Virus record (IMG/VR): IMGVR_UViG_3300050020_000211
Coordinates: 1 to 31,484 of that record
Length of the DNA stretch: 31,484 nt
Source: a virus
Direction: 5' to 3' (one strand)
The notes beneath the pieces were generated by a model, which saw nothing but the letters and a program-made list of their open reading frames with translations, did not search any database and was not told the origin of the DNA. Shown here one piece after another: positions 2,741 to 30,087 of the stretch; the stretch's first letter is position 1, and each line of letters starts with the position of its first letter. The position numbers and the translations under genes were made by a program.

Positions 2741-3607
2741 GTGGACCGCCTGCGTCTCAAGACGGCGGGCACCTACCCGCTCAGCGTCGCCACGATCGAC
2801 GAGGACGGCAACGCCCTGACAGTCACAGACCCGGCGATCGCCATCACGGATGGCGCTGGCACGGCGGTCACTGCCGCCGGCAGCCCCACGGCGACCGCCG
2901 GGGCCATGACCTACGCCCTGGCCGTTGGCACGCTGCCGCTCGACACCTACACGGCCACCTGGACCGGCACCGTCGCGACCGTCGCTCAGAGCTGGAGGAC
3001 CGCCTTCGAACTCTGCGGCGGCTACCTGTTCGAGCTGGCCGATCTGCGCGCCTTCGACCCGGCCTTCGCCGACACCGCCAAGTACCCGGCCACCCTCGTG
3101 CGCTCCGCGCGCACCGCCGCCGAGCAGCGCTTCGAGCGCGCTGCCCAGATTGCCTGCGTACCGCGCGCCAAACGCCTCACGGCCGTGGGCAACGGCACCT
3201 TCCGTTTGAAGACTGGCCTCTCGGCGCTACGTCGTGTTGTCTCCCTCTCGGTGGACGGCACTGCCCTGACCTCTGACGAACTCGCGGACCTGGTGCCGCG
3301 TGAGTGGGGTGCCATTGACTGCTCCCACCACGCATCCTGGGAACGCAACCACTGGCGTCGTCACGCCGCCATCGACGTCTGGTGTGAGCACGGCCTCGAC
3401 TACCCCGACGAGCCGGTCTCGCAGGCCGTCATGCTGCTCTGCCGCGACTTCCTGATCCGCTCGCCGTTGTCCAGCCGCGCCACGGTCGAGCAATCGGACG
3501 TCGGCTTCTTCCGCCTCTCCATCGCCGGCAAGGATCGCCCCACCGGTATCCCCGAGGTCGACGAAGTGATCGCCGAGCTCAACGGCAGACGACCGAAGGT
3601 AGGCTGA
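2741..3607 (+). CDS. Head-tail connector protein with N-terminal Ig-like domain
   Basis: The predicted product has 288 residues. About residues 1-90 form an Ig-like or beta-sandwich domain (TYPLSVATIDEDGN, LDTYTATWTG). The rest resembles gp6-type head-tail connectors: LADLRAFDP, an RSARTAAEQRFERA helix, a beta region around residues 150-180, and a helical C-terminus with QAVMLLCRDFLIRSPL. Connectors of this type bind beneath the portal and prepare the head for tail joining. The GTG start at 2741 lies three bases after the previous stop and has only a weak ribosome site, suggesting translational coupling. The N-terminal extra domain is longer than in typical connectors of about 100-200 residues, so this is probably a fusion. 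Confidence 0.65.
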   Translation: MDRLRLKTAGTYPLSVATIDEDGNALTVTDPAIAITDGAGTAVTAAGSPTATAGAMTYALAVGTLPLDTYTATWTGTVATVAQSWRTAFELCGGYLFELADLRAFDPAFADTAKYPATLVRSARTAAEQRFERAAQIACVPRAKRLTAVGNGTFRLKTGLSALRRVVSLSVDGTALTSDELADLVPREWGAIDCSHHASWERNHWRRHAAIDVWCEHGLDYPDEPVSQAVMLLCRDFLIRSPLSSRATVEQSDVGFFRLSIAGKDRPTGIPEVDEVIAELNGRRPKVG

Positions 3608-3650
3608 TGAACGTCGTCACCGCCATCAGCCCGACGAGAGAGGTGCGGGG

Positions 3651-5492
3651 ATGACCGTCATCCGTACCAATCTGCTGACCGACCCGAGTTGCGAACTCGA
3701 CACCGACCTCGATGGTCTAGCCGACGGTTGGGCGATAAATCAGAATGTCACAGGCACGCCGACCTATTCGCTGGCTCCTGGCCGCCTCAAGGGACTCGCC
3801 CAGCGCGTCCAGTACAGCGGCGTGGCCGATGATTCGTCCAAGCACCTCATCCTCAGCGCCGACACCCTAGCCGCGAGTTCCGCTCCCGATGACCCCTGTG
3901 TGGGCAGCTACTACATCCATGGCTCGGCGGTTGGCGTCGCTGTGATCCTGGTTGTCGGTGCCTATGATAGTTCCGAGAATCTTCTCGGCTACCAAGGCAG
4001 TGACCCGCTGACGGTTACGAGCATTTGGCAGCGCGTTGATGTCAGCTACCCATCCCCCCTTCTGCCAGCCGAAACCGACCACGTACAAGTGTGCCTGCAA
4101 ATCACCGGAATCGACTCAGGAGACACAATCGACCTCACCATCGACGATGCGCTGGCTGAGAAGACAGCAACGTTACTGGACTATTTCGACGGTGATACCA
4201 CGCTACTCACTGACTACGACTGCGCCTGGACTGGCAACCCGGAGGCTTCTCCTTCAACCGCAACCAGTCCACGTTCGGCAGCCGGCATCACCTGGGCCGA
4301 CGGGAAGTGGACGCGGCAAGGCGTCATGGTCTCCTACCCGACCGGCACTGTGTCAGAGATCACCGTTATCGCAGACGACGACGGTGTCTGGAAGATGTGG
4401 TACACACACGACGGCTACATCTGTCTCGCTACGGCTCCCGCACACTCCGGCCCCTGGACGCCATACGCGGGGAACCCCGTGGTCGGCCCCATCGGCGGCT
4501 ACGGCGTCGGGGGCGCCTACGTCAAGAAAGTCGACGCGACCTACCACATGTGGGTGGGCATCCAGACGACTCCTACCAACAAGGCGCATTTCACATCGAC
4601 CAACGGCATCGCCTGGACCTTGGCGGACTCTAACTACCTCCTGCCTGGGGAATCCGGGACATTCGACGATGGCGGCGGAGCGGCTAAAGGCGTCTGGTGG
4701 GACGACAACTACGGCACCTGGTGCATGCTTTACGAGGCTTACCAGCTCGGGACCGACTACTACACGGCCGGTCTGGCCATGGCGTCGGACATCGACGGCC
4801 CCTGGGAGAAGTACGTTGGGAGCCCGGTCCTGGGTGGCCCGACCCTCTGCTGCTCTCCACACGACGTTTTCCAGTTCCATGGGGGCTACTACATGTGGTT
4901 CCACGGAGGCGGCCTCCTGGCTCTGCCGACTGACGCTTGCCGCGCCTACGGCACGTCGCCGTATAACTGGACGGCCGATCCGACACCCGTCCTGGTCCGC
5001 GCCACCACGGACGAGGGAGTGGGGCTTCCGTACGGTCAGATCGCCGATACCTTCACGGTCCTCGACGGTGAGACGCTGTGTCTGTACTACTCTGCGTTCA
5101 CTGATGGCCGGGAGCCCACCTCCTCCGTCATCAAGCTGGCGACGGCGCCGCTACTCGCCACCCTTGCTCGCACCATTCCCCTCACCTCCGGCGACGGCCA
5201 GAACTTCGCCATGACCGCCGGCGAGCACGTTGTATTGCAATACACCACGGCGGTGCCATTCGATGAGGTGGCGTCGGCCGCTCTGCTGTCATTCGGTGGC
5301 CCTGAGCCGCCCGCCATCACACTGACCTCCGGTTCGGCCGGCGTCGTGGTAACCGTCGAACTCGTCGCCGCCGACACGCTCCTGCGCCGCGGCGCCTGCA
5401 CCTACCAGCTGTGGTTCTACGACTCAGCCGGCGACGGCGTCGTGGTGGCCAGCGGCAAGCTCACCATCCTGCCCGCGGCGCCTCAGACCTGA
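3651..5492 (+). CDS. Virion-associated five-bladed beta-propeller glycosidase-like protein
   Basis: The predicted product has 613 residues in three parts. Residues 1 to about 185 form a carbohydrate-binding-like beta sandwich (NLLTDPSCELD start, WQRVDV, linker LDYFDGDTT). About residues 200-515 show the repeated W-Y-G and blade motifs of GH43/GH32-type five-bladed propellers: KMWYTHDGYICLATA, YHMWVG, CMLYEAY, YYMWFHGG and LCLYYSAF. About residues 515-613 form a further beta domain. Such folds bind or cleave polysaccharides. The gene lies between the head-tail connector and the tail terminator, where a neck or head appendage could be encoded, and ends in a TGATG overlap with the terminator gene. 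Catalytic acids cannot be assigned by eye, so it may be a binding-only propeller. Confidence 0.7.
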   Translation: MTVIRTNLLTDPSCELDTDLDGLADGWAINQNVTGTPTYSLAPGRLKGLAQRVQYSGVADDSSKHLILSADTLAASSAPDDPCVGSYYIHGSAVGVAVILVVGAYDSSENLLGYQGSDPLTVTSIWQRVDVSYPSPLLPAETDHVQVCLQITGIDSGDTIDLTIDDALAEKTATLLDYFDGDTTLLTDYDCAWTGNPEASPSTATSPRSAAGITWADGKWTRQGVMVSYPTGTVSEITVIADDDGVWKMWYTHDGYICLATAPAHSGPWTPYAGNPVVGPIGGYGVGGAYVKKVDATYHMWVGIQTTPTNKAHFTSTNGIAWTLADSNYLLPGESGTFDDGGGAAKGVWWDDNYGTWCMLYEAYQLGTDYYTAGLAMASDIDGPWEKYVGSPVLGGPTLCCSPHDVFQFHGGYYMWFHGGGLLALPTDACRAYGTSPYNWTADPTPVLVRATTDEGVGLPYGQIADTFTVLDGETLCLYYSAFTDGREPTSSVIKLATAPLLATLARTIPLTSGDGQNFAMTAGEHVVLQYTTAVPFDEVASAALLSFGGPEPPAITLTSGSAGVVVTVELVAADTLLRRGACTYQLWFYDSAGDGVVVASGKLTILPAAPQT

Positions 5493-5932
5493 TGCCAGAT
5501 TTCCGCGTCATCGCCCCCGCTGTTCAGGCCGCTATCGGACTGGCGGTCGCCGCGGCTCTGCCGGCTGGCGTCGCCTGCTCGGTCGGCTACCCGGTCGGCG
5601 GCCTGGCAGACGAACAGGTCTGGGTCTCCGGCGACTTCGACGCCCAGACGACCTGGGAGGTCTCCGGGCAGCGCATGCGCGGCGAGACGGCACCGCTCGA
5701 AGTCCGCATCTCCGTGACGCAGTCCACAGAGGCCTTCGCCGATCCCCAGGCGCGCTGCCTGGAGCTCGAAGCCTGCGTCGAGGACGCCATCGCCGCCGAC
5801 CCCACCCTGGACGGTCTGGTCGACGAGTGCTCGGTCACGGAGGTCAAGGGCCAGGAGGCCATCCCCTCAGAGACCAGCCGCGCCTACGGCGTCGTCGTGA
5901 CCGTCACATACTCCGGCGCCGTGGCCGGGTGA
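5492..5932 (+). CDS. Tail terminator / tail completion protein
   Basis: The predicted product has 146 residues. The ATG at 5492 shares its A with the stop of the glycosidase-like gene (TGATG). The sequence has the layout of gpU-like tail terminators. It starts with a helix (PAVQAAIGLAVAAAL), then VGYPVGG, EQVWVSGDF, and a beta strand with TAPLEVRISVTQS. A helix follows around residues 85-105 (QARCLELEACVEDAI), and a final strand RAYGVVVTVTYSG. These proteins cap the tail tube and join it to the head. Its position just before the tail tube gene fits this role well. Confidence 0.7.
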   Translation: MPDFRVIAPAVQAAIGLAVAAALPAGVACSVGYPVGGLADEQVWVSGDFDAQTTWEVSGQRMRGETAPLEVRISVTQSTEAFADPQARCLELEACVEDAIAADPTLDGLVDECSVTEVKGQEAIPSETSRAYGVVVTVTYSGAVAG

Positions 5933-6147: not shown

Positions 6148-7119
6148 ATGGGCCTGCAGATCGGTAAGGACGTCCTGGGCGTCGCCAAGCAAACCGCCCT
6201 GGGCACGATCGCGGTCAACCCGGCCTATGCCCACGGCATGTCGTCCGACAAGTCGGCGGTCGCGCCCTCTGATGCCCCCGATCCCCTGACTAGCGCCTAC
6301 CTGGCAGCGCAGGGCGCCTACCGCGACAAGATCGACACCACAATCGACATCGAGACGCGCATGTGGCAGAAGTCGGTCGGTCTCTATCTGCTGGCCGCAC
6401 TGGGGGCCGACAGTGTCTCCGGTACGGGCACCTTTACCCACATCTTCACGCTGGCCAGTTCGCTCCCGTATCTCTCGTTCTTCGGCAAGAAGGGCGACGG
6501 CTCGATCATCGGTATGCGCGACTCCAAGATCGACGGGATCAACATCAAGTGGACCGGCAACGGCGCGATTGCCTTCTCCGTCAAGGCGATCTGCGGCACC
6601 TTCAGCTTCCCGGCGACCTTCGCGCCGACGGCGACCGACGAGTCTGACACGACCGCCTACTACACGCCGGTCGGTGGCACCTTCAAGTATGACCTTACGA
6701 CCGGGACCCCAGTCCTGGCCTCCATTATCGACGCCGAAGTCGATATCCAACGCAACAGCGCCTCCGTTATGTACTCGGGTGCAATCGAGGCAGGCGACGT
6801 GCAGGAGGGCGGCTGCGACATCACTGTCTCGCTTACCGTTCTGCCCGCGGACCTGACACTGTGGCGCAAGATAGTGACAGGTTCGACTACCGGGACCAGC
6901 CTGCTAACGACACCGCAGTACGGCTCGGCTGAACTGAACTTCAACGCGAGCCCGGACTCGCTCAAGCTGCAGTTCCCCAGGGTCGAGTTCCTCTCCGACA
7001 TGCCCAACGCCGACCCCAAGGGCGGTGCGGCACAGAGCCAGCTCGTCGGGACGGCATACCGCTCGGGCGCCACCTCGCCGATCACGGCCACCCTGGTCAA
7101 CACCGTCGCGACCTACTGA
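6148..7119 (+). CDS. Major tail protein (tail tube)
   Basis: The predicted product has 323 residues. It starts MGLQIGKDVLGVAKQTALGT, the typical opening of a tail tube monomer. Residues 60-115 contain DIETRMWQKSVGLYLLAALG and GTFTHIF, and residues 160-240 are strand-rich (TGTPVLASIIDAEVDIQRN, CDITVSLTVLP). The family forms stacked hexameric rings around the tape measure and makes the DNA channel. A strong GGAGG site lies just upstream. It is followed directly by the assembly chaperone gene, the conserved siphovirus order. The length of about 320 residues is on the long side, possibly because of an added surface domain in the second half. Confidence 0.85.
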   Translation: MGLQIGKDVLGVAKQTALGTIAVNPAYAHGMSSDKSAVAPSDAPDPLTSAYLAAQGAYRDKIDTTIDIETRMWQKSVGLYLLAALGADSVSGTGTFTHIFTLASSLPYLSFFGKKGDGSIIGMRDSKIDGINIKWTGNGAIAFSVKAICGTFSFPATFAPTATDESDTTAYYTPVGGTFKYDLTTGTPVLASIIDAEVDIQRNSASVMYSGAIEAGDVQEGGCDITVSLTVLPADLTLWRKIVTGSTTGTSLLTTPQYGSAELNFNASPDSLKLQFPRVEFLSDMPNADPKGGAAQSQLVGTAYRSGATSPITATLVNTVATY

Positions 7120-7674: not shown

Positions 7675-8186
7675 CGAATTATTCGGGCAAAGCGACTGGT
7701 GCCGGCGGGCGCGGCTTCTCGGCGGAGATCCGTGTCGAGGGTCTCGCGGAAACCATCGCCGCCCTGCGCCTCGTCGAACCCGAAGCCCTCAAGGTCCTGA
7801 AGTCGACCATGCGCAAGGCCGGCCTACGAGTTGCCGCCAACGCTCACGGACGTTTCGCCGCCACCGGGCATCCCGGCGGCGTCTACAAAGTGGAGCAAAA
7901 GCTTTCGAGCCGCACGAAGCCCGGCCTGCGCGTCTTCGCCACCGACTACAACGCCGCCGTCTTCGAGTTCGCCGGCACCCGGATGGCGGCCAAGGGTGGC
8001 AAAGGCCCGATCACTCCGCAGGGCGCCGCTATGGTGGCCTGGCTGCAACACTTCGCCAAGCCCGGGCGCTTCTTGTGGGGTGCCTGGGATGCGCAGGCAC
8101 CTGTATTTGAAGCCGAGTTGAAGTCCGCCATGGCCACGGCTGAGCAGGGCCTACAGGCCAAACTCGATGCGGTCGGAGGGCTGTAA
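7671..8186 (+). CDS. HK97 gp10-like neck / tail completion protein
   Basis: The predicted product has 171 residues. The GTG at 7671 overlaps the stop of the frameshift product. The sequence has the pattern of HK97 gp10-like proteins: RVEGLAETIAALR, a helix LKVLKSTMRKAGLRVAANAH, a basic loop, a beta region KPGLRVFATDYNAAVFEFAGT, and a C-terminal helix. The family acts at the head-tail joint, and its gene usually lies before the tail terminator. Here it lies between the chaperones and the tape measure. Either the order is rearranged, or the protein is a minor tail component with a similar fold. It ends in a TAATG overlap with the tape measure gene. Confidence 0.5.
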   Translation: MTNYSGKATGAGGRGFSAEIRVEGLAETIAALRLVEPEALKVLKSTMRKAGLRVAANAHGRFAATGHPGGVYKVEQKLSSRTKPGLRVFATDYNAAVFEFAGTRMAAKGGKGPITPQGAAMVAWLQHFAKPGRFLWGAWDAQAPVFEAELKSAMATAEQGLQAKLDAVGGL

Positions 8187-10453
8187 TGGCTGTCGTCGTC
8201 CGTGTCTTCGGCGAGGCGAACATGGCCCAGGTCAACGCGGCCCAGGCGGACCTGAATAAGGTCAAGGCCGGGGTCGCCGGTCAGACCGGCGTCTGGAGCA
8301 AGTTCTCGAACGTCGTTTCGGGCGCCTGGGCGAAACTCGGCTCGGGTTTCGCAGCCCTGGAGGTCATCAAGTGGCTCAAGGGCTCGATCTCGGCGACGCA
8401 GCAGTACCAGTTAGTGCTGCAGCAACTCAAGACTTCCGTGATGGCGACCAACGGCGTGGTGAGCAAACACGCCGCGGCCCTGGCTGCTGTGCGCAAGGCC
8501 GCGATCTCGGTGAGGGCCGCCCAGCTCACCCTGGCGACCGCGACCGAGCGCGCAGCCAAGGCTGAGAAGGACCACGGCAAGGCATCGCTCGAGTACAAGA
8601 CGGCCGCCTTCGCCGTGCAGCAAGCCGAACGCAACCTCTCGGCGGCCCAGAAGACGCACCGCCAAGATCTCGACGCCCTGCGTCACTCGGTCACGACCAC
8701 CACGGTCAGCTGGGACTCCTACAGCAAGAAGATGCAGACCGTCGTGACGGCTGAGGGCAACATCGCGGCCTATACAAAGACCCAGCTCATGACCGCCCTC
8801 GCCACCCTGACACAGACCACCGGCAGTGCTGGCAAGGGCCTCAAGCTGCTGGGACTCTCTGCCGACCTGGCGCGCGCCAAGAACATGGATCTGACCAAGG
8901 CCGCGCAGCTCGTCGGCAAGGTCGCCATGGGCAACACGACGGTCTTGAAGCGTTACGGCATCGTGATGGACAAAGGCACGACCTCCACGCAGGCGCTCGG
9001 CATCCTGCAGAAGAAGTTCGGCGGCCAGGCCAAGATCTACGGAGACTCCTCTGCCGGTGCCACGGCGAAGCTCTCCAACGCCCTCCATGATCTTCAGGTC
9101 GCGGTCGGCAGCGCCCTGTTGCCGACCTTCAACAAGCTCATAAGCTACCTCATCCGTGGCCTCGGAGCATTCCAGAAGCTTCCCGGCCCGGTCAAGACTG
9201 CGGCGGTCGCGTTCGCCGCCCTGACCGTTTCCGGCGCCATCCTTGCCCCGTGGTTCAGGACGATCAGCTCGGTCGTCGGAGGCACGGCTGGACTCTTCGT
9301 CAAGGCCGCCGGCGGCATCTCGAACTTCGCCACCGGCCTCACCAACAGCACCGCCGCGGGAAGCGCCTTCGCCACGCCGATGATGAAACTCGGCGGCTTG
9401 GTGAGCACGGCGGCTTCGGCGATCGCCGGCCTGGTCGTCAGGGTCGTGACCGCAGGCGCCGCCTTCGTCGTCTCGACAGCCCAACTTGTTGCCCACACCG
9501 TGGCGACCGTCGCCTCGGCAGTCGCCACGGGCGCCGTAACCGTCGCCACGACTGCCTGGACAGTCGCTCAGTGGCTTCTCAACGTCGCCCTGGACGCCAA
9601 CCCCATCGGCATCATCATCATCGCCATAGCGGCCTTTGTGGGGGCTCTCATCCTTGCCTGGCAGCACTGCGGGACCTTCCGCGCGATCGTGATCGGCGCC
9701 TGGAACGCCATCAAGGGCGCGACCATCACCGATTTCAACGCCGTGAAGGCCATCATCCTGGCAGTCTGGGGCGCGATCAAGACGGGCGCCTCGGCGGTGC
9801 GCAGTGTCGTGGTCGGCGCTTGGAACGGCATACGCAGCGGCGCTACAGCGGCCTTCGGCGCGGTGCGCAGTTTCGTAGTCGGCGTCTGGAACGGCATCAA
9901 GAACGCCGCCGTGACGGCGTTCAATGCCGTCGTGACCTTCGTCAGGGGCATCCCAAAGAAGATTACGAACGCGATCGGCAATCTCGGCACTATCCTGTAC
10001 AACGCCGGGGTCAGCATCATCAGTGGCCTGCTCAAGGGCATCACGGACAAGTTCGAAGCCGTGAAGAACTTCGTGGGCGGCATAGCCAGTTGGATCAGCT
10101 CCCACAAGGGACCACTCTCCTACGACCTTGTCATGTTGCAGCCGGCTGGCCAAGCGATCATGCAGGGTCTCATCAACGGCATCGAGTCCCAGAAGTCTAG
10201 CCTCGTCAAGACGCTTGGTGGCATCAACGCGAGTATCGCGGTCGGCGGCGGGTACGGGTCGCCGGCCTTCGCGGGCATCGGTGGCGCCTCGTCTGGCGCA
10301 GGTGGTGCCGGCGTCTCAATCACGTTGGTCCAAAACATCGACGCACGTGGCAGTTCACTGTCGACCGCCGATATCAAAGGCGCGGCGAGCGACGGTGCCG
10401 CGCCTGCCCTCGAGCGACTGGCGCGCGAAGTCCGCATGGTCGTGAGGCACTGA
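8186..10453 (+). CDS. Tape measure protein
   Basis: The predicted product has 755 residues and determines tail length. The first 320 residues are helical and alanine-rich, with coiled-coil character at about 100-165. Hydrophobic segments lie at about residues 335-357 (TAAVAFAALTVSGAILA) and 472-493 (IGIIIIAIAAFVGALILAW). These are typical of tape measures, which insert in the host membrane during DNA entry. Residues 500-590 hold repeats built around VVGAWNGI/VIGAWNAIKGA at about 20-24 residue spacing. The C-terminal part is glycine-rich. With about 755 residues the predicted tail is roughly 110 nm, using about 1.5 angstrom per residue. Overlaps couple it to both neighbours. Confidence 0.9.
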   Translation: MAVVVRVFGEANMAQVNAAQADLNKVKAGVAGQTGVWSKFSNVVSGAWAKLGSGFAALEVIKWLKGSISATQQYQLVLQQLKTSVMATNGVVSKHAAALAAVRKAAISVRAAQLTLATATERAAKAEKDHGKASLEYKTAAFAVQQAERNLSAAQKTHRQDLDALRHSVTTTTVSWDSYSKKMQTVVTAEGNIAAYTKTQLMTALATLTQTTGSAGKGLKLLGLSADLARAKNMDLTKAAQLVGKVAMGNTTVLKRYGIVMDKGTTSTQALGILQKKFGGQAKIYGDSSAGATAKLSNALHDLQVAVGSALLPTFNKLISYLIRGLGAFQKLPGPVKTAAVAFAALTVSGAILAPWFRTISSVVGGTAGLFVKAAGGISNFATGLTNSTAAGSAFATPMMKLGGLVSTAASAIAGLVVRVVTAGAAFVVSTAQLVAHTVATVASAVATGAVTVATTAWTVAQWLLNVALDANPIGIIIIAIAAFVGALILAWQHCGTFRAIVIGAWNAIKGATITDFNAVKAIILAVWGAIKTGASAVRSVVVGAWNGIRSGATAAFGAVRSFVVGVWNGIKNAAVTAFNAVVTFVRGIPKKITNAIGNLGTILYNAGVSIISGLLKGITDKFEAVKNFVGGIASWISSHKGPLSYDLVMLQPAGQAIMQGLINGIESQKSSLVKTLGGINASIAVGGGYGSPAFAGIGGASSGAGGAGVSITLVQNIDARGSSLSTADIKGAASDGAAPALERLAREVRMVVRH

Positions 10454-12124: not shown

Positions 12125-12547
12125 ATGGCCAGCAACTGCCTTGTCTACTATGCCGGCCGCCTCGCCGCCGCCAACGCCGACGCGGCTGCGATGATGGCCG
12201 CCTGCAACAACGGCTACATTCGTTGCTACGACGGCGTCCAGCCTGCTTTGGACGGGTCGATCACCACGCAGAACCTGCTCTTGGTCCTGCGGTATGCAGC
12301 TACGGCCGCTGGAACGCCTGCCCTCGGGGTGGCCACCATTAACGCCCTGACCGGGGCAAACTGGACCGCTAACGGCACGCCGACGTTTGCCCTGTCGTTC
12401 AAGAGCGACGGCACGACCGTGGTCTGGTCCGGCACGTTCGGCATCGCCACGGGCGACTTCGATATCACGATCGACACTCTGCCTGGGGTCGCCGGTCAGC
12501 CGGTCGGCTCCGTCGGCGGCACTTACACCTCCAACTGGGCCCTCTGA
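12125..12547 (+). CDS. Small tail-region protein, unknown function
   Basis: The predicted product has 140 residues. The ATG at 12125 has a strong AAAGGAGAA ribosome site, and the end overlaps the tailspike start (TGATG). The N-terminus (NCLVYYAGRLAAANADAAAM) is helical; the remainder is a beta-rich segment ending TYTSNWAL. It lies between the minor tail protein and the tailspike, so a role as a tailspike base or tail-tip accessory is plausible. I do not recognise the family. Confidence 0.55.
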   Translation: MASNCLVYYAGRLAAANADAAAMMAACNNGYIRCYDGVQPALDGSITTQNLLLVLRYAATAAGTPALGVATINALTGANWTANGTPTFALSFKSDGTTVVWSGTFGIATGDFDITIDTLPGVAGQPVGSVGGTYTSNWAL

Positions 12548-28740: not shown

Positions 28741-30087
28741 ATGCCTGGCAGCCAATGGTGGACCGACTCGTGGAACCCGATGGTCGGCTGTACGTCGGTC
28801 AGCGAAGCGTGCACGCACTGTTACGCCAGAGCGATGAACGCTCGTTTCGGCTGTCCTGGCGGTGACAAGACGTTCCGCCCACACACGCACCCCGAACGCC
28901 TCGACAAGCCGCTGCACTGGCGCAAGCCGCGGCGCATCTTCGTGGACTCGATGAGCGACCTGTTTCATGAGGCGTTCACAGATGGTCAGCGGGATGAGGT
29001 CTTCGCAGTGATGGCGGCGTGCCCGCAGCACTGCTTCTCGGTCTTGACAAAGAGGCCAGAGGAGATGCGCGACTACATCACCAAAGCTATGGAAAGGGTA
29101 GCCGCTTTGCGGTATGATGTAACGTATGAGAGACGAGGAGATAGTAGCCGCACTGCCGGAGCTGGAGATCGACTCGGAGGGTCGGATCTGGCGCATCGCG
29201 ACGCGGCACGGCAGGGGCGTGAAGGATGGCGGCGGGTACCACAAGGGCTCGACGATGAGCCCTTGCGCGAGGCGCAGAACCGAATCGGCGAACGCACAGG
29301 GATACCTACAGGTTCACGTGATGGTGGCCGGCCGGCGAATGTCCCCAATGGCGCATCGCGTCCTGTGGGTCCATCTTCATGGTCCGATTCCCGAGGGGTT
29401 GACGATCAATCACAGGAACGGAAACAAGGCGGACAACCGTCCCGAGAACTTGGAACTGGCGACCTTCTCAGAGCAGAGACGTCATGCACTCGACGTGCTC
29501 CATGCGAGGAAGAACCATCCGACCGGCAGCAAACACCCAAAGACGCATCTGACGGAGAGCGACGTGGTCGAGATTCGTCGGTTGCGATCAGGGGGTCGGA
29601 TGGTCAAAGACATTGCGGAAGCCTACGGCATGAAACCCAAGGCCGTATCGGCAATCTGCTGTCGGAGGACTTGGCTGCACATCTAGAGTGGCCGCTCCCG
29701 AACGTCCATTTGGGCGTCACCGTCGAGAACCAGGCCCGCGCCGACGAGCGCATACCGATCCTGCTCGACACCCCGGCGGCGGTGCGGTTCGTCTGCTGCG
29801 AGCCCTTACTGTCCGGTGTCGACCTGAGCGACTACATGCACGACTCGGTCTGTAACCCGGTGCGCCGTGAGAGCGGCTTGTGCATCTGCTCTGAGCCGCG
29901 AGAGCGTCACGTCGACTGGGTCATCGTCGGCGGCGAGAACGGTCCGGGCGCACGGCCGATGCAGCTGGAGTGGGCGCTCGACCTCTACCGTCAGTGCAGG
30001 GCGGCGGGCGTGCCATTCTGGTGGAAATCCGGCTCACGTGGCCTCTCCTACGACCCCGAGATGATGGCGACGAGGGAACTGCCATGA
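28741..30087 (+). CDS. DUF5131 (phage Gp37/Gp68) protein interrupted by an HNH gene
   Basis: The 448-codon frame starts at ATG 28741. Codons 1-123 and 316-448 match the DUF5131 family: WWTDSWNPMVGC, then C17, C24 and C27 (VSEACTHCYA), HWRKPRRIFVDSMSDLFHE, FSVLTKRPEEMRDYI. After the break come PNVHLGVTVENQ, ADERIPILLDTPAAVRF, CEPLL, VDWVIVGGENGPGARPM and FWWKSG. Codons 124-315 (29110-29685) match nothing in this frame and correspond to an HNH gene in another frame. Without them the protein would have 256 residues, a normal family length. Family members may be radical-SAM-like three-cysteine proteins of unknown reaction. Whether a 448-residue product is made or works is unknown. Confidence 0.7.
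   Translation: MPGSQWWTDSWNPMVGCTSVSEACTHCYARAMNARFGCPGGDKTFRPHTHPERLDKPLHWRKPRRIFVDSMSDLFHEAFTDGQRDEVFAVMAACPQHCFSVLTKRPEEMRDYITKAMERVAALRYDVTYERRGDSSRTAGAGDRLGGSDLAHRDAARQGREGWRRVPQGLDDEPLREAQNRIGERTGIPTGSRDGGRPANVPNGASRPVGPSSWSDSRGVDDQSQERKQGGQPSRELGTGDLLRAETSCTRRAPCEEEPSDRQQTPKDASDGERRGRDSSVAIRGSDGQRHCGSLRHETQGRIGNLLSEDLAAHLEWPLPNVHLGVTVENQARADERIPILLDTPAAVRFVCCEPLLSGVDLSDYMHDSVCNPVRRESGLCICSEPRERHVDWVIVGGENGPGARPMQLEWALDLYRQCRAAGVPFWWKSGSRGLSYDPEMMATRELP
29113..29118 (+). promoter_or_regulatory. -10 box for the nested HNH gene
   Basis: TATGAT stands seven bases before the ATG at 29126. A weak -35 (TGGAAA, 29090-29095) lies 17 bases upstream. The spacing implies a leaderless message, the same arrangement as the antisense HNH gene at 28102-28710. 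Confidence 0.4.
29126..29686 (+). CDS. Nested HNH homing endonuclease with C-terminal HTH
   Basis: The predicted product has 186 residues, in frame +1 relative to the DUF5131 frame that surrounds it. The core is typical HNH_3: MAHRVLWVHLHGPIPEGL, TINHRNGNKADNRPENLEL, then SEQRRHA. The C-terminus has a NUMOD-like helix-turn-helix, KTHLTESDVVEIRRLRSGG and DIAEAYGMKPKAVSAI, typical of homing enzymes for site recognition. Only 16 bases precede and none follow within the inserted segment, so there is no room for a group I intron. A -10 box seven bases before the ATG suggests its own promoter. Confidence 0.85.
   Translation: MRDEEIVAALPELEIDSEGRIWRIATRHGRGVKDGGGYHKGSTMSPCARRRTESANAQGYLQVHVMVAGRRMSPMAHRVLWVHLHGPIPEGLTINHRNGNKADNRPENLELATFSEQRRHALDVLHARKNHPTGSKHPKTHLTESDVVEIRRLRSGGRMVKDIAEAYGMKPKAVSAICCRRTWLHI

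Follow-up and report, generated by a model that had tools for sequence, protein, structure and literature searches.

What does a protein with the look of a glycosidase do at the head-tail junction of a tailed phage? Glycan tools of phages have mostly been described at the tail tip, and the gene considered here lies between a head-tail connector-like gene and a tail terminator in a 31,484-base record of an uncultured virus (the window, meaning the whole stretch of DNA analysed). With a probability of roughly 0.55, we favour a virion-carried glycan-handling appendage that entered the neck operon as a cassette and probably serves at the neck as a tool for host sugars. The open reading frame at 3651-5492 is real and tri-partite, and it is arranged with its neighbors as follows.

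2741..3607, + strand: head-tail connector-like gene (PHROG 30828, an unnamed family, E 6e-31)
3607..3654, + strand: mini-ORF of 15 codons, read from sequence, bridging the connector stop and the appendage start (possible coupling leader)
3651..5492, + strand: appendage gene, 613 aa, ATG start; CBM-like module, five-bladed propeller and C-terminal module
3651..4262, + strand: CBM_4_9-like N-terminal module, aa 1-204, ending YFDG...WTG...ASPS (tblastn, PHROG and viral scan)
4266..5162, + strand: predicted five-bladed beta-propeller, about aa 206-504, glycosidase fold class (sequence similarity and model)
5163..5489, + strand: C-terminal module, aa 505-613 (~109 aa), proposed docking domain, 49% identical to its counterpart in a second virus (L080)
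5492..5932, + strand: tail terminator (PHROG 4204 'tail terminator', E 0.0014, queried as 5411-5929; also by relatives)
6148..7119, + strand: tail tube protein (Phage_tube_2, E 3e-9)
8186-10453: tape measure, downstream of the tail tube

The position assigned to the gene by the first-pass annotation, between connector and tail terminator, is borne out by the matches of its two neighbors to PHROG 30828 and PHROG 4204. The best PHROG match of the terminator frame is an unnamed family (E 5.5e-5), ahead of PHROG 4204, and we take the gene at 2741-3607 to be a connector from its position in the gene order; the N-terminal part of its product gives the impression, by sequence, of an Ig-like domain. 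The connector stop (TGA, 3605-3607) overlaps the ATG of the 15-codon frame, the end of which overlaps the ATG at 3651, and the appendage stop (5490-5492) shares position 5492 with the ATG of the terminator. As read from these overlaps, the appendage gene is translationally coupled to its neighbors at both ends. Third-position GC content is 0.77 for the appendage frame, 0.82 for its propeller part and 0.68 for its CBM part, the last compared with 0.78-0.91 in eight neighboring genes (1986 to the tape measure). An equal value of 0.68 is seen in the upstream HNH gene. This HNH endonuclease frame (279-1103, Pfam HNH E 8e-10) overlaps the 3' end of the capsid gene, and the corresponding gap in a related contig, L004, holds a different HNH frame.

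In relatives of the window, the junction is closed. Connector and terminator abut in all 19 readable contigs, the terminator starting no more than 8 bases from the connector stop (some starts judged by eye), and an insert is found only in the window. These contigs (L002-L009, L011-L014, L051-L053, L055-L057 and L065) were collected with connector and terminator as probes, and the terminator was identified by similarity in 18 of them and by place only in L003; L051 and L052, of equal size and coordinates, may be one virus, and L052 had no separate readout of its junction bases. Excluded from the count were further loci on contigs already represented (L010, L015, L054, L058-L064) and four loci in which one gene was absent or the terminator unrecognizable (L016, L017, L018, L066). 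The window protein had no match at E<=1e-3 in the relatives' loci searched and, across seven whole virus records (five belong to the 19), none even at E<=10. The absence of the insert from relatives therefore points to a cassette that is recent or specific to the lineage. Other variations are seen around this junction. Directly upstream of the connector, L003 encodes a protein (6286-7065) with an Mtd_N (major tropism determinant) N-terminus (Pfam E 2e-12), apparently a fiber protein. The tail tubes of L004, L006, L008, L009, L013 and L057 carry an extra stretch of ~120 residues, sized from the gaps between tblastn pieces, near residues 73-96 of the window tube; the window tube does not contain this stretch, which is possibly a tail decoration domain. 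In the 36,284-base contig represented by L013 and L018 (IMGVR_UViG_3300021075_000001), the connector gene is split over both ends with overlapping residues, and the contig is therefore probably circularly permuted or a circular genome.

The N-terminal module finds its relatives among tail proteins. It matches the PHROG tail families phrog_14138 (minor tail protein, E 1.1e-5) and phrog_33 (Dit, E 1.4e-4), and tblastn on phages returned 43 records at E<=10, including Microbacterium, Arthrobacter, Brevibacterium and Streptomyces phages. The best of these are a hypothetical protein of phage TunaTartare (E 5e-4) and a minor tail protein of phage Molivia (1e-3), and the annotation, among the matches listed, is mostly 'minor tail protein'. 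The Pfam family CBM_4_9 (PF02018) gave no match to the window protein at E<=1; the part of TunaTartare gp21 aligned with the module resembles CBM_4_9 weakly (E 0.0033, score 18.2 against a Pfam cut-off of 25.9). A motif of the FDG...WTG...ASxS type follows the beta-rich domain on its C-terminal side, as in modules of phage minor tail proteins. A viral scan with the module returned six loci, in which it is found in open frames of 348-1794 aa that are tail-type by eye; it is repeated in L076 and L077, and L073 and L074 encode one identical protein. The plasmid search gave a single weak match, to the CBM part (E 0.5). In the Streptomyces phage TunaTartare (L019:3162-7205), a gene with Amidase and LysM domains and another with CBM and Laminin_G domains lie shortly upstream of the portal gene, and the head block of this phage thus holds cell-wall and glycan-type proteins.

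The central domain is divergent in sequence, with a fold that can nevertheless be assigned. The window protein finds nothing in Pfam or NCBIfam (for Pfam down to E<=1, with both protein and domain), and the sequence cut-off of glycoside hydrolase family 43 (PF04616) is not reached by the protein or the isolated domain. Among cellular proteins, the closest relatives found are propellers of the GH43 type in a KSB1 genome (E 6e-9, the value for this one genome, with 10 genomes or records searched), and all five KSB1 propellers scanned are GH43 by Pfam (E 2.6e-10 to 7.3e-17). An AF2 model of aa 206-508 has a pTM of 0.71 and a mean pLDDT of 64. By ten-residue blocks, pLDDT is about 69-92 in blades 1-3, 56-64 in blade 4 and 30-46 in blade 5, and the first 30 residues are also below 50. 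VIA-align places GH117-, GH130-, GH159- and GH43-type structures at the top, the first 16 rows having Z 16.4-17.5 and rmsd 3.0-4.1 A over 218-237 aligned residues; examples are 3p2n (GH117-type, Z 17.5) and 4qqs (GH43, Z 16.4). Some of these family names are our assignment from the titles of the structures. Because the 11-row alignment behind the model includes GH43-like rows, the model confirms fold compatibility rather than discovering the fold. With that reading, the assignment of aa 206-504 to a five-bladed propeller of the GH43/GH117/GH130 fold class holds in the model. The first-pass annotation had proposed a CBM-like module and a five-bladed propeller for this frame; the tail-protein matches of the N-terminus, the KSB1 similarity and model Z scores of up to 17.5 uphold both, and structure prediction against glycosidase families yielded a propeller rather than another fold. 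A further profile (A8) matched 89 PDB sequences, a result discounted for the window protein, as GH43 rows dominate the profile.

Viral relatives of the propeller were sought separately. By sequence, tblastn on phages gave none, and pattern scans of viral contigs produced 0, 5 and 178 stretches, none of them confirmed. Foldseek on viral models returned 48 matches at E<=0.001 (best E 9e-7), which, among the matches listed, have TM-scores of 0.47 or below and are mostly to proteins without a named function. Phages do have propellers, and no close relative of the window propeller was seen.

The question of location turns on the C-terminal module. From gene order alone, a neck location is weakly indicated: in the TP901-1 record, nps carries the annotation 'neck passage structure, experimental' and is flanked by two holin genes, and the position of a gene is therefore insufficient to place its product. 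A better argument for docking at the neck or head, itself drawn from sequence comparison, comes from a second virus. A viral scan with the C-terminal module alone found one locus:

L080, 2828-4897 of IMGVR_UViG_3300037104_000030: appendage of 689 aa

In this frame, a GDSL/SGNH hydrolase begins, a CBM-like module is inserted, the hydrolase resumes at DDYHPND, and the C-terminal module and a further domain of ~130 residues follow. The middle is Lipase_GDSL_2 (Pfam E 1e-13), with the motifs GDSL, GTND and DYHPND present, the roles of which in L080 we presume. The two appendages thus share their CBM-like modules (32% over window aa 6-204, E 2e-8) and their C-terminal modules (49% over 111 aligned residues, L080 aa 392-502, E 3e-23) and differ in what lies between, GDSL/SGNH hydrolase as opposed to propeller, as well as in the extra domain of L080. 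Alignment scores against shuffled sequences follow the same division: 235 (31 +/- 6) for the C-terminal module, 125 (33 +/- 5) for the CBM-like module and 30 (33 +/- 5) for the middles, which are unrelated. The CBM-like module and propeller named by the first-pass annotation therefore stand as part of the protein, but the C-terminal domain of ~109 aa, a conserved cassette end to judge from L080, had been missed.

The genomic setting of the L080 cassette corresponds to that of the window in part. Upstream of it lies the gene of a major head protein (phrog_1005, E 6e-45) and downstream that of a Neck1 protein (phrog_26, E 1.2e-4), after which come a frame in the place of the terminator and then a weakly tube-like frame. 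The tail tubes of the two viruses score 89 (shuffled 40 +/- 6), the frame in the terminator's place shows no similarity to the window terminator (33, shuffled 32 +/- 5), and the major capsid proteins score 33 (shuffled 35 +/- 5) with the L004 capsid as a stand-in, because the window capsid is cut at the window edge (80% identical to L004 over the 105 residues seen). Immediately before the cassette, a frame of 45 codons, stop included (L080:2697-2831), ends in ...GTPEVDSAIAQFGRQKHVVG and resembles the tail of the window connector, ...TGIPEVDEVIAELNGRRPKVG; it is matched at E 0.004 by tblastn with the L002 connector and may be what is left of a connector. The C-terminal extension of L080 matched no known connector family, gave nothing by hhalign against the connector alignment and scored 13.4 bits against phrog_3063, a family with no function; its identification as Mu gp36-like was dropped, with no match found. 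Given the dissimilar terminators and the unassigned extension, 'corresponding locus' is meant here in terms of gene order, and fusion to a neck protein, the terminal domain having no connector family, is inferred from place. Two members, window and L080, make up the swapped set. That they share end modules around unrelated middles at a corresponding locus suggests, at the sequence level, a swappable cassette, and the strongest reason to regard the C-terminal module as a neck or head dock is that the same end modules accompany different hydrolase-type middles in viruses with unrelated capsids.

Searches of Pfam, PHROGs and PDB sequences gave nothing for the C-terminal module apart from two PDB chains (E 1.2-1.3), which were judged chance. 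A BppU-like identity is unsupported, nothing significant having emerged against BppU or the TP901-1 NPS in what were mostly single-sequence comparisons, and similarity to the N-terminal part of the connector was not detectable by weak, mostly single-sequence methods. A search of 400 genomes from the phylum of genome G001 with the pair of C-terminal modules gave matches in two, both judged chance and appearing by eye to be a HAD/GmhA-type protein and an MFS-type transporter.

Glycan appendages of the neck and head are already known as a class, and the module combination seen here would differ from them. For the published systems, the comparison draws on parts of the cited papers. Neck passage proteins of 936-group lactococcal phages carry CBMs, and the TP901-1 collar is reported to be non-essential (PMC6669499, as excerpted). 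As is proposed for the window protein, the NPS of 936 and P335 phages is a neck accessory protein with carbohydrate-binding or polysaccharide-enzyme-like end domains, variable and absent from some phages. In the excerpted account, it has an N-terminal BppU-like ring domain, sometimes a coiled coil, and then a CBM (PMC6669499), whereas in the window protein the CBM-like module is N-terminal, the propeller central and the candidate dock an unrelated C-terminal domain. The genes also differ in place, TP901-1 nps lying between holin genes and the window gene between connector and terminator. On the head, the archaeal virus HFTV1 bears a protein, gp31, with galactose-binding-like and glycan-modifying-enzyme-like domains on its capsid turrets, proposed in the portion of the paper used here to bind or modify glycans before tail contact; the enzyme-like domain is polysaccharide deacetylase-like and the protein sits on capsid hexamers via a turret base protein, and the two systems are likened by description only (PMC12494034). 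Gp45 of the S. aureus phage phi11 is an adhesion protein with a five-bladed propeller, proposed to bind sugar in a cavity; it is, according to the same partial text, a baseplate trimer with stem, platform and tower, its propeller superimposed there on a cyclotransferase, and is again likened by description (PMC4901313).

The five-bladed glycosidases and phosphorylases of GH43, GH117, GH130 and GH159 resemble the window propeller in fold (Z up to 17.5), and their KSB1 GH43-type members in sequence; the window domain departs from them in lying under every Pfam cut-off, in acids that are not clearly conserved and in a possible one-blade shift. Dpo7 is reportedly an exopolysaccharide depolymerase named after a pre-neck appendage protein. 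In the part of a 2017 review considered here, P22 gp4 is the sole virion-associated lysin reported from the neck by that time, and a depolymerase of staphylococcal origin is said to resemble a pre-neck appendage protein (PMC5380687). P22 gp4 is comparable in bringing enzyme activity to the neck but degrades peptidoglycan and is itself the head-tail connector (PMC5380687), and both gp4 and Dpo7 are likened to the window protein by description. Roseophage R4C, in contrast, has a CBM-like domain at the distal tail or baseplate, as its partial account describes (PMC10276861). By analogy, the window protein may work like the neck and head examples and would differ from them in domain order and docking module. 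Among the matches listed in the open-licence literature, at the level of titles and abstract starts, no GH43-type propeller or GDSL/SGNH hydrolase is described at a siphophage neck.

Whether the propeller would act as an enzyme or only as a binder depends on the register of its blades. The canonical GH43 acids, a triad that we take to be Asp/Asp/Glu, appear from sequence not to be cleanly conserved. A KSB1 propeller profile places window blades 1-3 on profile blades 2-4, and in a tandem copy of the window domain the last window blade aligns to profile blade 1, raising the score from 34 to 37 bits, as a one-blade shift of the domain would predict. The profile additionally puts window blade 3 on profile blade 2 (18 bits), which leaves the register insecure. 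In the sequence-favored register, the GH43 'ID' becomes 'VG' and the catalytic Glu becomes Asp340, or Lys if ungapped by eye. These replacements argue for a pure lectin, a catalytically dead glycosidase-fold propeller that would serve receptor or glycan binding only, with the CBM adding avidity and the location being the same as in the favored reading. The five-bladed propeller of phi11 Gp45, with a cavity modeled for GlcNAc in the part of that study used here (PMC4901313), is a precedent, and we regard a lectin as a serious contender at somewhat less than even odds. On the other side, four blades have acids close to where their first strand begins (E236, D339/D340, H404/D405 and D466, located by sequence and DSSP rather than by coordinates), which leaves room for a non-canonical active site; if the register is collinear, the GH43 triad could be replaced by E236, D339/D340 and D405 (with H404). 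The sister cassette in L080, moreover, carries a predicted enzyme with its motifs present.

Two further readings concern where, or whether, the protein is on the virion. It could be an appendage of the tail tip or tail shaft whose gene moved into the neck operon, a reading that suits an N-terminal module typical of minor tail, Dit and other tail proteins and is helped by the TP901-1 nps example, in which gene and virion positions can differ. Recurrence of the C-terminal module at the corresponding place in L080, despite an unrelated capsid protein, tells against a tail location, as does the continuation of that module in L080 into an extra domain where a neck gene is expected, and we consider such a transfer unlikely. 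Alternatively, the gene could be a non-structural moron encoding a glycan-active protein that is made late and freed at lysis to loosen the matrix for progeny. An extra gene that all 19 readable relatives lack at the junction and whose CBM part differs in base composition is what a moron would look like; the close coupling of its translation to that of the connector and the terminator, on either side, and the presence of the N-terminal module in tail-type proteins elsewhere make it quite improbable.

In the favored reading of a virion-carried neck appendage, the protein would be incorporated into the virion, its C-terminal module (aa 505-613) probably docking on the neck or head at the connector, portal vertex or capsid. 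The CBM-like N-terminus would bind host-surface or matrix glycans reversibly, and the central pocket of the propeller would recognize, and possibly cleave, one specific sugar linkage ahead of irreversible contact by the tail tip. The first-pass annotation had set the protein apart from a tailspike at 12547, a fair distinction, as the protein encoded there has a pectate-lyase-type N-terminus (Pfam E 7e-7). A broader proposal, which we put forward tentatively and would sooner bet against than for, is that tailed phages possess an exchangeable neck 'tool holder', in which CBM-like and C-terminal docking modules bracket a replaceable glycan-active domain (a propeller of glycosidase fold, or a GDSL/SGNH esterase or deacetylase) and dock on or fuse with the head-tail connector, giving the neck its own means of editing surface glycans, separate from the tail tip. 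If true, the docking module would explain how enzymes are swapped without touching tail assembly, and if it brings different enzymes to the neck or head, it would offer a sequence-findable handle on a little-explored region of the virion. Being small, and without a match in the libraries searched, the C-terminal module is directly testable for binding to the neighboring connector.

Other genes of the window are of separate interest. In the head block, the product of 1332-1931 is glycosyltransferase-like by eye, with no library match above cut-off; its 56% relative in L004 (4401-5476) adjoins a hexapeptide acyltransferase (PF00132, E 8e-12), and the window product could modify the virion's own glycans. 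At 28741-30087, the window encodes a DUF5131 protein (Pfam E 3e-71), to which a radical SAM 'mobile pair' model also matched, below its cut-off.
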